Shown piece after piece: positions 12,931 through 16,995 of a DNA stretch of 64,000 nt. The notes under the pieces are model-generated. The model was not told the origin of the DNA. It worked only from the letters and a program-made list of their open reading frames with translations, and did no database searches. The DNA is from Pseudomonadota bacterium (GTDB taxonomy: Bacteria > Pseudomonadota > Alphaproteobacteria > Acetobacterales > Acetobacteraceae). Position 1 is the stretch's first letter. The number at the start of each line of letters is the position of its first letter. The translations under genes were made by a program, and so were the position numbers. Where the stretch lies: positions 1 to 64,000 of the forward strand of contig JAJXWD010000009.1 in assembly GCA_021781835.1 (NCBI GenBank). Reading direction: 5' to 3'.

Positions 12931-13482
12931 TCAGCCCGCCAGCCGGCGCGGCCAAAACATGCCGGCCTTGGCGCGGTAGGCCGCGTAATCGGCCGCCAGG
13001 CTGGAGCGCGCGAATTTCCGCTCCTCTCTTGAGGCGGCATGGGCGTAGAGCGCGGTCATCACCACGGGCGCCGCCCAGCCGGCAAGGCCAGGGCAGGCCA
13101 GCGCCGTGCCCAGCCAAAACAGCACATACGCCAGGTAAAACGGGTGGCGGACATGGCGGTACGGACCGGCTTTGAGCAAAAAGCTCGGCAGGTCGGTGTC
13201 AAAGGCCAAGGTCGGCGGGGTCTGGCGGCTGGCGCGCACGGCCCAGACAAACACCCCAAGCCCGGCCGCGAACAGCCCCACCGCGCCCCCCCACAGCGCG
13301 CCTGCCCCATGGGCGAGACTCCAGAAAAACAGCAGCGCGAATCCGAGCGAGAGCGCGCTGGTCAGCTGCATGCCGCGCGGCATGGCGCCCGTTGAGCGGA
13401 AATGCCCGCGCACCCCCCACGAGAAGGCGACAAAACAGGCGAGACCGGCGAGGCCGGTAACCGAAATGGCGATCTGGCTCAT
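12931..13482 (-). CDS. ICMT/PEMT-family membrane methyltransferase
   Basis: A 183-residue integral membrane protein with four or five hydrophobic segments (about residues 5-20, 40-60, 62-82, 113-127, 130-146). The C-terminal half carries the isoprenylcysteine carboxyl methyltransferase/phospholipid methyltransferase signature: GPYRHVRHPFYLAYVLFWLG (about 106-125), then EERKF (about 152) and YAAYRAKAGMFWP (about 165-177). It would transfer a methyl group from SAM to a lipid-like acceptor at the membrane. Prokaryotes do not generally prenylate proteins, so the acceptor is something else. It starts three bases after the stop of the acyl amino acid synthase gene, so the two form an operon and may act on the same molecule. 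Confidence 0.8.
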   Translation of the reverse strand: MSQIAISVTGLAGLACFVAFSWGVRGHFRSTGAMPRGMQLTSALSLGFALLFFWSLAHGAGALWGGAVGLFAAGLGVFVWAVRASRQTPPTLAFDTDLPSFLLKAGPYRHVRHPFYLAYVLFWLGTALACPGLAGWAAPVVMTALYAHAASREERKFARSSLAADYAAYRAKAGMFWPRRLAG

Positions 13483-13485
13483 GGC

Positions 13486-14220
13486 TCAGCCCTCCACGAA
13501 CACGTTGACGGTTTCACCCCGGAACAGCCCGGCATAAGCCTCCCAGCTCGCGTCATTCATGGCGACGAACGGAATCTCCTCGCATGAGCGGAAATATTTT
13601 TCCCGCGGGCAGGCCATCAGGTTGGTCTCGAACTTCACCCCCGCGTAGCGGCGCGGCCCGGCGACATAACCAAAATGCATGCGCCGGTAGAACGGCGTGT
13701 GGTTACGGCGCACGCAGTTCACCATCATGTCCGTGCCCTGCCCGATGACGAAAAACGACACGAACCGGTAGAGAATGAACACCATCTCGTAGCTGTCGCG
13801 GTAATCGGGGTGGCGCACCAGGCGGTTGATCTCGGCGATCTTGGGCGGGCGGCCATGGGTCACGCGCGCGGCCACCTGCTTCATCTCCTCGGGGAAGATG
13901 CGGGTCGCCGGAATCTCATCGAAGCCTTCGAGGCCGGGCGTGTAATCAAGCGTGCTCAGCCGCATCGAGGCGGCGGGCGTGCCGTCTTTGTAAACCACCA
14001 CACATTGCTGGTTCGGGCGCAGATCGTCGGCGTCCGAAAACAGCCCCTCGGGCTGCGGGTCTATATAGCCGCCCGCCAGATACGAGGCATGGCGGATGGC
14101 ATAGGCATCGCGCCGGGTCTGGTCATCGAGCGCCATGCGCGCGGTGTAACCTTCGGGCACCGGCGCCGCCGCCACCGCCCCGCGCATGATGTTGGTCGTC
14201 ATTGTTTGTAAAGCAGACAT
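13486..14220 (-). CDS. N-acyl amino acid synthase, FeeM-like (LuxI-fold acyltransferase)
   Basis: A 244-residue GNAT/autoinducer-synthase-fold protein of the FeeM group, known to join acyl groups from acyl-ACP to amino acids. Visible family features are YAIRHASYLAGGYIDPQ (about residues 41-57), FSDADDLRPNQ (about 62), ASMRLSTLD (about 83), the acidic/basic core KIAEINRLVRHPDYRDS (about 124-140) and the late PFYRRMHFGYVAGPRRY (about 176-192). An upstream in-frame ATG exists, but ATG 14220 has a perfect AGGAGG at 14226-14231. It is the first gene of an operon with the ICMT-like methyltransferase and is divergent from a c-di-GMP enzyme. The product's chain length and amino acid are unknown. Confidence 0.75.
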   Translation of the reverse strand: MSALQTMTTNIMRGAVAAAPVPEGYTARMALDDQTRRDAYAIRHASYLAGGYIDPQPEGLFSDADDLRPNQQCVVVYKDGTPAASMRLSTLDYTPGLEGFDEIPATRIFPEEMKQVAARVTHGRPPKIAEINRLVRHPDYRDSYEMVFILYRFVSFFVIGQGTDMMVNCVRRNHTPFYRRMHFGYVAGPRRYAGVKFETNLMACPREKYFRSCEEIPFVAMNDASWEAYAGLFRGETVNVFVEG

Positions 14221-14646
14221 TTTGTCCTCCTGATGTTCAACCAAAACAAGAGGAATTTTTAACCATTTCGCGCACGGCGTGCACCATGAATCATCGGCCA
14301 TCTGGCTTCTGTCCCGCGCCACAGGCATAAGTTAAGCTCTTAAAAAACCTTAAGTATTTTTATGAAGCCCTTGTTTTCGGCTCGCCTGACCGCCGCCGCG
14401 CCCCGACGTCTCCGGACTACCCGGGACTTTTCCTAAAGCAAAAAAATGCGTGCCATAGTTGCAGGCAGACGTTAAGGTTGAAGCATCTGAGGCGTGGTTT
14501 GCCCGGGATCGGGTCGACGACTCGCAACCGGCGCCGCCCGGTCGTTACGATTTGGCATTTCGGAGGGGCGGATTTCGGGACATAATTACGGCACCGCGGC
14601 ACGCAAGGCCAGCGGTTTCGCGCTTGGCCAAAAGCTGAAGCGCGCG
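14221..14646. other. Divergent intergenic region between the acyltransferase operon and the GGDEF-EAL gene
   Basis: It holds the Shine-Dalgarno of the acyltransferase gene (14226-14231) and an AT-rich patch at 14325-14365 with the inverted pair CTTAA/TTAAG that is the likeliest promoter region. The last 150 bases are open in frame with the GGDEF-EAL gene (possible GTG start at 14494), but codon composition looks coding only for the final 60 bases or so. No RNA gene was recognised. Confidence 0.4.
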
Positions 14647-16995
14647 ATGGTGCGTATGCGCCAGCTCGCCGGGCTGATCGAGGATGCCCACGTCATGCCC
14701 GGCATCGCCGAGCGGCTGCTGCTCGACCAGGCGACCGATTTTTCCTACCTCATCACCGCCATCTCGCTGCTGGGCCTGAGCACGGCCGGCCTGCTCTACT
14801 GGGATTTCTGGCACAACCCCGGCGACCCGTGGCGTGTCGCCGGCATGGGCGCGGTGCTGTTTTGCTACGCCGCCATCCTGGCCAGCGCGACGCTCTGGAT
14901 CCGCCAGCGCCACCCCACCGCGCGGCGCGCCAAGCGTTACATCACCTTCATGAGCCAGCTGCTCCTGCTGCTCGGCGCCTCCTGGTCGCTGCTGCTCACC
15001 CTGCTGGCCAGCACCGCCCATCCGGCCCAGCTTTCCATGCTCTACGGCGTCATGGTTGGCTGCCTGGCCACGCCGGTCATGGTCTCGCCGGCGCTGTGCG
15101 CGCTGGCCTATTGGCTGCCGGTCTCCATCGGCATTTGCGTGGCGGTGGTCGTCTCGGGCGTGGCCGATAATTTCGCCATCATCGACCTGCTCTCCTTCAT
15201 GCTGCTCACCGGCTTTTGCATCCTCTATCTCAACCGCCGGCTCAATGAGCGCGCCATCGGCGCCATCCGGCTCGAGGAAAACGCCGAAGTCATCAAGCTG
15301 CTGCTGCGCGATTTCGAGGAAAGCGCGTCCGACTGGCTGTGGGAGGCCAACGCCGCCCTCGAGCTGCAACCCGTGAGCCCGCGCCTCTCGCAAGTGGCCC
15401 GGCGCGCGGCCGAAAACTTTACCGGCAAGCTGCCCGCCGCCCTGCTCGGCCCCGTCATCGAGCGCAACGGCACCCCCGACCCCGCCATCGCCCGGCTGAT
15501 GCGCGCCATGGATGAGCGTTCCCCCTTCCGCGATCTGGTCGTGCCCGTCATGGTCGAGGGCGAGCAGCGTTTCTGGTCGCTCACCGGCAAACCCATCCTC
15601 GACAAGCGCGGCCATTTCGCCGGCTATCACGGCGTCGGCTCAGACATTACCGGCCAGCGCCGCCAGCAGGAGCAGATCGCCTTTCTGGCCCGCCATGACA
15701 GCCTGACCAAGCTCCCCAACCGCGTGCTGTTCTCCGAATTGCTGCACGAGGCCTGCACCCATGCCGGGCAGCGCGGCATCGCCCTGCTGTGCCTCGACCT
15801 CGATAATTTCAAGCTCATCAACGACACGCTCGGCCACGCCACGGGCGATGCCGTGCTGGTGGCGGTGGCCGAGCGCCTGAAGGGCGCCATGCGCCAGGGC
15901 GACATCGCGGCGCGCCTCGGGGGCGATGAGTTCGCCGTCATCCTCTACACCAGCGATATCGAGGAGGCGCTCAGCATCGCGGCCCGTATCATCGAGCGCA
16001 TCAGCCGCCCCTACCGGTTCGACGGCCAGCTCGCCCATATCGGCATGTCCATCGGCCTCACCATGGCCCCCAAGGACGGCAAAGCCCCCGGCACGTTGAT
16101 GAAAAACGCCGACCTCGCCCTCTACCGCGCCAAGGCCGAGGGGCGCGGCGTCGCCCGCCTCTACGACCCCGCCATGGACCAGCGCCTGCAAGGCCGGCGC
16201 CAGATGCAGGCGGGCCTGCGCCACGCCCTCGGCGCGGGGGAATTCTACCTCGAATACCAGCCCATCATCGACCTTTCGAGCCGGCGCATCACCGGCGCCG
16301 AGGCGCTCATCCGCTGGCGCTCCCCCGAGCGCGGCCTGGTCAACCCGGCCGAATTCATCCCCATCGCCGAGGAAACGGGGCTGATCAACGACATTGGCGA
16401 CTGGGTGCTGTGCGAGGCCTGCAAAACCGCCGCCACCTGGCCAGCGCCCCTGAGCGTGGCGGTCAATCTCTCGCCGCTGCAATTCCGCGACCCGGCCCTG
16501 ATCGACACCATCAAGGCCGCGCTGCGCGATTCCGGCCTGCCGCCGGAGCGGCTGGAGATCGAAATCGTCGAGTCGGTCATGCTCGAGAGCACCACCCACA
16601 CCGAATACGCCCTCTGGCAGCTGCACGGCCTCGGCGTGCGCATCGCCCTCGATGATTTCGGCACCGGCTATTCCTCGCTTTCCTATCTGCGCCGCTTCCC
16701 CTTCGACAAAATCAAGATCGACCGCTCCTTCATCCGCGACCTCGGCTACGAAAAAGACGACAGCTCGATCATCCTGGCCATCATCGGCCTGGCCGAGCGC
16801 ATGAACATGGTGGTCACCGCCGAGGGGGTCGAGAATGAGGAGCAGCTCGTGCTGCTCAGCGCCTATGGCTGCACCCAGGGGCAAGGGTATTTTTTCCACC
16901 GCCCCCTGCCCGCGCCCCGCTTCCTCGAGGTGTTGCGCGCCAACGAAGCCCCCTTCGCCGCCCCACCCGCCGCCAATGCCGGCACCGTGCTGTAA
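14647..16995 (+). CDS. Membrane-anchored GGDEF-EAL c-di-GMP signalling protein
   Basis: About 782 residues from ATG 14647 (833 if GTG 14494 is used). The N-terminus has five or six membrane segments (LITAISLLGLSTAGLLYW onward), followed by a PAS-like region (ASDWLWEANAALELQ), a diguanylate cyclase domain with intact RLGGDEFAV and an inhibitory I-site RQGD five residues before it, then an EAL domain with GAEALIRW, EIVESVMLE, DDFGTGYSSLSYL, KIKIDRSFI and TAEGVENEEQ. Both catalytic centres look intact, so it may make and break c-di-GMP. The start is uncertain because no candidate has a convincing ribosome-binding site. It is divergent from the FeeM-like operon. Confidence 0.9.
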   Translation: MVRMRQLAGLIEDAHVMPGIAERLLLDQATDFSYLITAISLLGLSTAGLLYWDFWHNPGDPWRVAGMGAVLFCYAAILASATLWIRQRHPTARRAKRYITFMSQLLLLLGASWSLLLTLLASTAHPAQLSMLYGVMVGCLATPVMVSPALCALAYWLPVSIGICVAVVVSGVADNFAIIDLLSFMLLTGFCILYLNRRLNERAIGAIRLEENAEVIKLLLRDFEESASDWLWEANAALELQPVSPRLSQVARRAAENFTGKLPAALLGPVIERNGTPDPAIARLMRAMDERSPFRDLVVPVMVEGEQRFWSLTGKPILDKRGHFAGYHGVGSDITGQRRQQEQIAFLARHDSLTKLPNRVLFSELLHEACTHAGQRGIALLCLDLDNFKLINDTLGHATGDAVLVAVAERLKGAMRQGDIAARLGGDEFAVILYTSDIEEALSIAARIIERISRPYRFDGQLAHIGMSIGLTMAPKDGKAPGTLMKNADLALYRAKAEGRGVARLYDPAMDQRLQGRRQMQAGLRHALGAGEFYLEYQPIIDLSSRRITGAEALIRWRSPERGLVNPAEFIPIAEETGLINDIGDWVLCEACKTAATWPAPLSVAVNLSPLQFRDPALIDTIKAALRDSGLPPERLEIEIVESVMLESTTHTEYALWQLHGLGVRIALDDFGTGYSSLSYLRRFPFDKIKIDRSFIRDLGYEKDDSSIILAIIGLAERMNMVVTAEGVENEEQLVLLSAYGCTQGQGYFFHRPLPAPRFLEVLRANEAPFAAPPAANAGTVL

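Follow-up and report, generated by a model that had tools for sequence, protein, structure and literature searches.

A conserved locus of Acetobacteraceae combining a FeeM-like N-acyl amino acid synthase, an ICMT-like methyltransferase and a membrane GGDEF-EAL protein: a possible lipid signal module

Introduction

N-acyl amino acid synthases of the FeeM/NAS type (PF21926), which have the same profile and fold as the synthase described here, were reported to be encoded alone, within a pathway cluster, beside PEP-CTERM systems or beside tyrosine-tailoring genes, and also to be fused with a PilZ domain, as far as the available parts of two publications go (PMC4897644, PMC12479983). Their physiological function is described there as not clear (PMC4897644). 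Unlike these known enzymes, the synthase of our locus is accompanied by an ICMT-like enzyme and a GGDEF-EAL protein. In the open-licence literature the NAS-PilZ fusion was the sole tie found between FeeM/NAS enzymes and c-di-GMP or GGDEF proteins, and for the combination of NAS, methyl ester and methyltransferase only the work on stieleriacines was found.

Methyl esters of N-acyl amino acids (NAMEs), the predicted product class of this locus, are known from chemistry. N-acylglycine methyl esters are made by Loktanella isolates F13, F14 and D3, which differ from the sequenced strains of L. salsilacus; according to the available text these esters are regarded as native compounds, since methanol was not used (PMC6296433). 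The accessible part of a later account states that genes for NAME synthesis were not known as of 2024 and that these compounds have no part in AHL signalling (PMC11580390). Among open-licence papers on methyl ester compounds no gene work was found by title or by the beginning of the abstract, and nothing was found there on the chemistry of such lipids in Acidocella. Thus NAMEs represent a chemistry without genes, whereas the Acidocella module is known from genes alone and has in addition a c-di-GMP partner.

The closest working precedent for the gene arrangement is the RpfF/RpfR system of BDSF, where a signal synthase using acyl-ACP is encoded beside a PAS-GGDEF-EAL protein, as outlined in the available sections of PMC6361424. 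RpfR carries a soluble N-terminal FI domain instead of the hydrophobic N-terminus with multiple transmembrane segments found in our protein, and, unlike our locus, the system includes no methyltransferase. RpfF itself has a crotonase fold and is unrelated to FeeM. The PhcB/PhcS system of Ralstonia is similar in another respect, since its signal, 3-OH MAME, is a fatty methyl ester formed by a methyltransferase (PMC8578825, available part). It involves no N-acyl amino acid, however, and its receptor is a histidine kinase. PhcB also belongs to a methyltransferase class different from that of the enzyme considered here.

Results

Identity of the two adjacent genes

The window, that is the whole analysed stretch of 64,000 nucleotides (contig JAJXWD010000009.1), comes from the genome of an acid-loving Acidocella of the family Acetobacteraceae. 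The first-pass annotation had described in it two genes, coding for a FeeM-like synthase and an ICMT-like methyltransferase and separated by three bases. Both open reading frames were found by their coordinates exactly in this arrangement, on the minus strand (Table 1), with the TGA codon of the synthase gene at 13486-13488 and the ATG of the methyltransferase gene at 13480-13482. They had also been placed behind one strong Shine-Dalgarno sequence. The AGGAGG of the synthase gene is present, but the methyltransferase gene has its own GGAGGG within the last codons of feeM, so that this part of the description is not quite right.

Table 1. Features of the locus and the evidence for them
Feature	Coordinates	Strand	Description and evidence
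ICMT/PEMT-superfamily integral-membrane methyltransferase	12931..13482	-	183 aa; Pfam, VIA-align, alignment A2
FeeM-family N-acyl amino acid synthase	13486..14220	-	244 aa; GNAT / autoinducer-synthase fold; Pfam and AlphaFold model
Divergent intergenic region between the FeeM and GGDEF-EAL genes	14221..14646	.	both promoters presumed inside; sequence
Shine-Dalgarno AGGAGG of the FeeM gene	14226..14231	-	5 bases 5' of ATG; sequence
Membrane PAS-GGDEF-EAL protein	14647..16995	+	782 aa from ATG 14647; longer GTG start 14494 possible; Pfam PAS_4, GGDEF, EAL
N-terminal membrane domain, putative sensor	14701..15327	+	209 aa; simple hydropathy gives five TM segments; alignment A4
PAS domain	15322..15663	+	PF08448 8.3e-6, residues 277-390 of the ORF from 14494
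GGDEF domain	15688..16146	+	PF00990 2.3e-44
EAL domain	16216..16905	+	PF00563 1.6e-73

The product of the first gene, which starts with ATG at 14220 and stops at 13486, scored 98.5 bits with PF21926 against the cut-off of 27 (E 4.4e-28), and no further Pfam family was registered up to E 1. Its start is backed by many relatives, whose matches open with M at the same residue. In the AlphaFold model (mean pLDDT 82.2) the six best PDB matches were chains of FeeM itself (2g0b; TM 0.80-0.84 by target length), and the AHL synthase EsaI took rank 12. The FeeM-like identity is therefore well founded. The position of the catalytic residue is less certain: according to the available text of PMC4897644 it is Glu95 in FeeM and Glu103 in Nas354, while in the profile alignment the conserved E130 of our protein falls against an Asp located few residues past Glu95 of 2g0b, with low identity and unsure register.

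The second protein passed the Pfam cut-offs of PEMT (1.5e-8, 35.5 bits versus 25) and ICMT (2.2e-5, 25.2 bits versus 24) and matched DUF1295 (1.5e-5). Its AlphaFold model (mean pLDDT 81.8) was best superimposed by VIA-align on Ma-ICMT (4a2n; Z 12.5, 167 aligned residues, rmsd 3.6). A Z value just under 13 for a helical model is only suggestive by itself, but 4a2n and ICMT were also recovered in the profile search; Foldseek alone gave nothing significant for this model (best E 0.9). Fold and C-terminal motifs are shared with ICMT, and the RHPxY and EE motifs are kept in relatives (alignment A2). The ICMT-like assignment made from the letters alone has thus been upheld, with the reservation that the protein gained 36 bits with NF040696, the equivalog model of protein-S-isoprenylcysteine O-methyltransferase, where a true member requires 160. 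We consider the identities of both genes as established at this level.

Conservation of the pair in Acetobacteraceae

Further searches were made with profiles A1 (FeeM), A2 (methyltransferase), A3 (refined FeeM), A4 (membrane domain) and gg (GGDEF), which were built from loci like those found. Presence of the genes at such loci is partly a matter of construction, and what is informative is their linkage, the lack of matches at other places and the distance between high and low scores.

In the same genus a FeeM homologue was present in 33 of 37 genomes, the own one included, and in 29 of these 33 the coordinates place the methyltransferase directly downstream. Two culturable species, A. aminolytica and A. 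aromatica, are among the carriers of the locus. Of the other four, in G022 the contig ends 80 bases past feeM, G023 and G029 have no methyltransferase at that place, and G004 bears two distant FeeM copies, both without it and one cut by the contig end. Over 299 Acetobacteraceae genomes A1 matched in 35, belonging to 16 of 102 genera. These matches make 48 rows and 47 distinct places, one gene being split across frames, of which 46 were examined; G699:C33 was left out, and its contig gave no match to A4. At the 46 places the methyltransferase (A2, at least 60 bits) was adjacent in 24 cases, 3.2 kb away in one, degraded in one and absent in 20.

The reverse search in the same 299 genomes gave 27 methyltransferase matches of at least 120 bits, and the next best one had only 48.6 bits. 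As many as 25 of the 27 adjoin FeeM; one is 3.2 kb away from it (G681) and one has no FeeM (G601). Included in the 25 is G686, whose divergent FeeM, found with profile A3, is placed after the methyltransferase and where no GGDEF gene occurs in the 9 kb of sequence around the pair. G601, a genome of the same genus, has kept both the methyltransferase and the GGDEF-EAL gene, with no FeeM left in the stretch separating them (L185:2700-3300). Lack of conservation in relatives had been named beforehand as an outcome that would speak against the pairing; by both counts the adjacency is conserved, and this linkage is established. Comparison of 25/27 with 20/46 indicates that within Acetobacteraceae the methyltransferase is more dependent on FeeM than FeeM is on the methyltransferase. 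Inside this family, and not beyond it, the methyltransferase subfamily occurs almost exclusively at FeeM loci.

The available part of a 2021 survey of Acetobacteraceae type strains reports NasY homologues in three Acidiphilium strains only (PMC8776678), and the broader FeeM set found here is therefore absent from that survey. The FeeM gene was also seen on three Acidiphilium plasmid records. In one of them (L227, A. multivorum plasmid NZ_CP041717.1) its neighbours are a response regulator and a winged-helix protein encoded divergently, and neither the methyltransferase nor the GGDEF-EAL gene adjoins it. At nine loci outside Acidocella (L199:5128-5391, L200:6601-6819, L203, L210, L211, L212, L186, L216 and L217) a small conserved protein, mostly of 73-102 aa (range 73-187), is encoded divergently just upstream of FeeM. 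It has a motif like SRSYWHGWRNG..D.G...PD.AQ and gave no Pfam match for the two members scanned. We considered it as an acyl carrier protein and rejected this idea, as its sequence has no DSL motif, the mark of such carriers.

The membrane GGDEF-EAL protein as a constant partner

In the first-pass annotation the divergent GGDEF-EAL neighbour was mentioned as a side remark. The neighbour does exist, with GGDEF and EALIRW motifs intact, but its value was underestimated, since it turned out to be the most constant partner of FeeM. In 41 of the 46 places FeeM has a membrane PAS-GGDEF protein (gg, at least 150 bits) no more than 1.1 kb away, also where the locus is devoid of the methyltransferase. 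Two of the five exceptions are cut by contig ends, and in one of them (L213) the membrane domain is visible at the contig edge; the other three, which have no GGDEF protein, are among the weakest FeeM matches. Seven EAL genes were found in the 2.9 Mb of the own genome; with about 2,800 genes assumed for it, chance adjacency is estimated as <1% per locus.

Of the 41 partners, 36 are full-length proteins with both GGDEF and EAL; the one of G675, divided close to its end, brings those with EAL to 37, and the other four, all from genus g294, are without EAL. At these loci (L285, L287, L292 and L293) the protein ends after GGDEF and would thus only make c-di-GMP. In each of the 38 aligned proteins longer than 600 aa there is a GGDEF and an EAL-type motif. 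The GGDEF gene and FeeM point away from each other in Acidocella, as they do at 13 of the 17 methyltransferase-less loci having GGDEF (the locus with degraded methyltransferase excluded); at the remaining loci with the methyltransferase, except G681, the GGDEF gene lies 3' of the two genes in the same direction. In three genomes of two genera (G477, G524 and G620) one open reading frame comprises methyltransferase, membrane domain, PAS, GGDEF and EAL. The methyltransferase part of these fusions is just under the Pfam cut-offs in the two frames scanned and scores 162-195 bits with A2, and we take the fusion as established.

No Pfam family matches the 209-aa membrane domain convincingly. Profile A4, searched in 80 selected Acetobacteraceae genomes, matched in 19 of 19 with FeeM, which is largely by construction because most alignment rows come from them, in G601, which has the methyltransferase only, and in one of 59 without FeeM (G442, 47 bits); it did not match in G686. 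Inside FeeM or methyltransferase loci lie 27 of its 31 matches, and this near-confinement of the domain is established as well. In genomes with several copies, pairwise distances agree better under the true FeeM-GGDEF pairing than under most swaps made inside a genome: out of 768 arrangements 22 were equal or better, a number that counts the true pairing itself. Two or three modules of FeeM and GGDEF per genome were observed in G645, G567, G512, G610, G699, G437, G620 and G524, as if there were parallel signals. The module is therefore larger than first described and consists of FeeM, an optional ICMT-like methyltransferase and a membrane PAS-GGDEF(-EAL) protein.

Related genes in other families

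The Pfam model of FeeM gave matches in 99 of 385 genomes of the class, many near or below the cut-off, while refined profile A3 retained 11 of 385, only 3 of them above 200 bits; the other Pfam matches, probably distant acyltransferases, were set aside. Outside Acetobacteraceae, too, FeeM adjoins a GGDEF-EAL gene, namely in G397 (locus L204), which belongs to a different family of the class, and on plasmids of Shinella and Rhizobium tumorigenes (L230, L231), where the N-terminal part of the partner proteins has no match to A4.

The methyltransferase of the window (P0001) matched 16 plasmid records, 14 of them from Rhizobium/Neorhizobium. On plasmids of Loktanella salsilacus the two places covering at least 80% of the query overlap the start of a FeeM gene by 4 bp, so this species has a homologous gene pair, whose methyltransferase matches A2 with 101 bits (4e-30). 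After the pair come one gene and a TetR regulator, and then export genes of the HlyD and MFS types (L225:8512-11264), through which the ester might leave the cell. In 325 Rhodobacteraceae genomes (324 genera) FeeM exceeded 110 bits in six, with the methyltransferase adjoining in two, G715 and G836. Both of these, Loktanella and also G686 have the gene order methyltransferase, then FeeM. The occurrence of the pair in 2 of 325 agrees with the reported restriction of NAMEs to few genera. No GGDEF-EAL gene was found at the six Rhodobacteraceae FeeM loci in about 5-6 kb seen on either side, nor is there such a neighbour at the Loktanella locus. The Loktanella genes may be considered as candidate NAME genes, with the reservation that NAME production is known from strains other than the sequenced ones.

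The methyltransferases of Rhizobium and Neorhizobium plasmids score 133-140 bits with A2, which is above Loktanella, and at three loci (L228, L312 and L313) neither FeeM nor the GGDEF gene of the module is found within about 5 kb. Outside Acetobacteraceae, consequently, the methyltransferase also works without FeeM. In L228 and L312, which are annotated, it is divergent beside an alpha/beta hydrolase gene, so that perhaps a methyl ester is made and cleaved there. On the Deinococcus actinosclerus plasmid CP029776.1 (L232) a distant FeeM homologue stands 3' of a fatty acid desaturase gene, and one gene past it there is a gene annotated as chemotaxis protein CheR; possibly it is another cluster for tailoring of acyl amino acids.

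Discussion

According to the explanation that we prefer, and to which we give slightly less than an even chance, the three genes form a lipid-signal module, where FeeM and the methyltransferase make an ester of the NAME class and the GGDEF-EAL protein perceives it, changing the level of c-di-GMP. As family and fold suggest, FeeM would acylate an amino acid at its amine, taking the fatty acyl chain from acyl-ACP. The membrane ICMT-like enzyme would then use SAM to methylate the free carboxylate, yielding a neutral and diffusible N-acyl amino acid methyl ester, a step to which the fold of the enzyme, its linkage with FeeM and the Loktanella parallel all point. Finally, the membrane domain or PAS of the GGDEF-EAL protein may perceive this lipid in or near the membrane and through c-di-GMP affect attachment or biofilm behaviour, for which the linkage, the fusion with the methyltransferase and the RpfF/RpfR precedent argue. 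At loci without the methyltransferase the free N-acyl amino acid would be the signal. Where the methyltransferase is present the ester is the probable product, and the signalling role of the module is plausible.

Several observations count against this explanation: the 20 of 46 FeeM places without the methyltransferase, rhizobial methyltransferases without FeeM, Rhodobacteraceae pairs without GGDEF and with the methyltransferase placed first, the methyltransferase being present at only two of six strong Rhodobacteraceae FeeM loci, the difference between Loktanella producers and sequenced strains, the four of 41 partners without EAL, the lack of clear conservation of FeeM Glu95 at the aligned place, and the report that NAMEs are outside AHL signalling. 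The ester itself had been proposed in the first-pass annotation, and this idea gains from the conserved pairing and from Loktanella. It is nevertheless only partly supported, because product and acceptor are only predicted, because FeeM so often occurs without the methyltransferase and the rhizobial enzymes without FeeM, and because the GGDEF gene is the steadier partner.

It is conceivable, though we find it unlikely, that the pair does make a lipid and the GGDEF-EAL protein controls enzyme activity or the local state of the membrane instead of sensing, so that lipid production would be regulated by c-di-GMP. NAS enzymes fused to the c-di-GMP-binding PilZ domain have been described (PMC4897644, available part), a precedent that supports coupling of NAS with c-di-GMP and leaves its direction either way; the N-terminal domain of RpfR also restrains RpfF, as the accessible text of PMC6361424 has it, and fusion of the methyltransferase with GGDEF-EAL suits enzyme control as well as sensing. 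On the other hand, when the FeeM and methyltransferase proteins of the window were compared with Pfam and NCBIfam, neither PilZ nor any further domain binding c-di-GMP was revealed, and the partner has an extra membrane input domain almost exclusive to the module loci. The constancy of this partner in 41 of 46 places and its near-exclusive membrane domain would stay unexplained if N-acyl amino acids served as surfactants, antibiotics or membrane lipids, with the methyltransferase tailoring or detoxifying them and signalling being incidental, so that we regard this alternative as distinctly improbable. It draws on the available reports that N-acyltyrosines made by NAS are surfactants with antibiotic activity (PMC4897644) and that N-acyl tyrosine acids inhibited some bacteria, methyl esters being generally inactive (PMC12479983), which would fit self-protection by the methyltransferase; export genes near the Loktanella operon are in line with it.

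The acceptor of the methyltransferase may also be different, for instance a phospholipid amine, a thiol, another lipid or a protein, in which case the enzyme would be only co-regulated with FeeM. PEMT is its best Pfam match, several acceptors are found within the wider fold class, and the rhizobial relatives (133-140 bits), beside an alpha/beta hydrolase gene where annotated, manage without FeeM. We believe this to be rather improbable in view of 25 strong Acetobacteraceae matches out of 27 adjoining FeeM and of the association recurring in Rhodobacteraceae. Most doubtful of all, and in our opinion very improbable, is an acyl-homoserine lactone synthase using SAM as amine donor, with the methyltransferase acting on something else. 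The family does keep a R/Y/D/D/R/E/R pattern (profile A3), which we take to be like that of LuxI, and the Loktanella relative is annotated as AHL synthase. This relative, however, barely passes Autoind_synth PF00765 (24.6 bits with the cut-off of 24) and has 129.9 bits with FeeM, the synthase of the window gave no match to PF00765 up to E 1 together with its 98.5 bits for FeeM, and its best fold match is 2g0b, with EsaI at rank 12.

If the lipid-signal module exists as we propose, one may go further and suppose that in some lineages ester-forming enzyme and receptor are united in one protein, and that the NAME genes missing so far in the Roseobacter group code for enzymes of these two types; we put this forward as a rather doubtful, yet possible, extension. 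The locus offers two candidate genes of synthesis and a candidate receptor with c-di-GMP as a readout, and, if the proposal is true, a role for N-acyl amino acid synthases would be found. It suggests a lipid signalling module not described so far and candidate genes for a known class of compounds.
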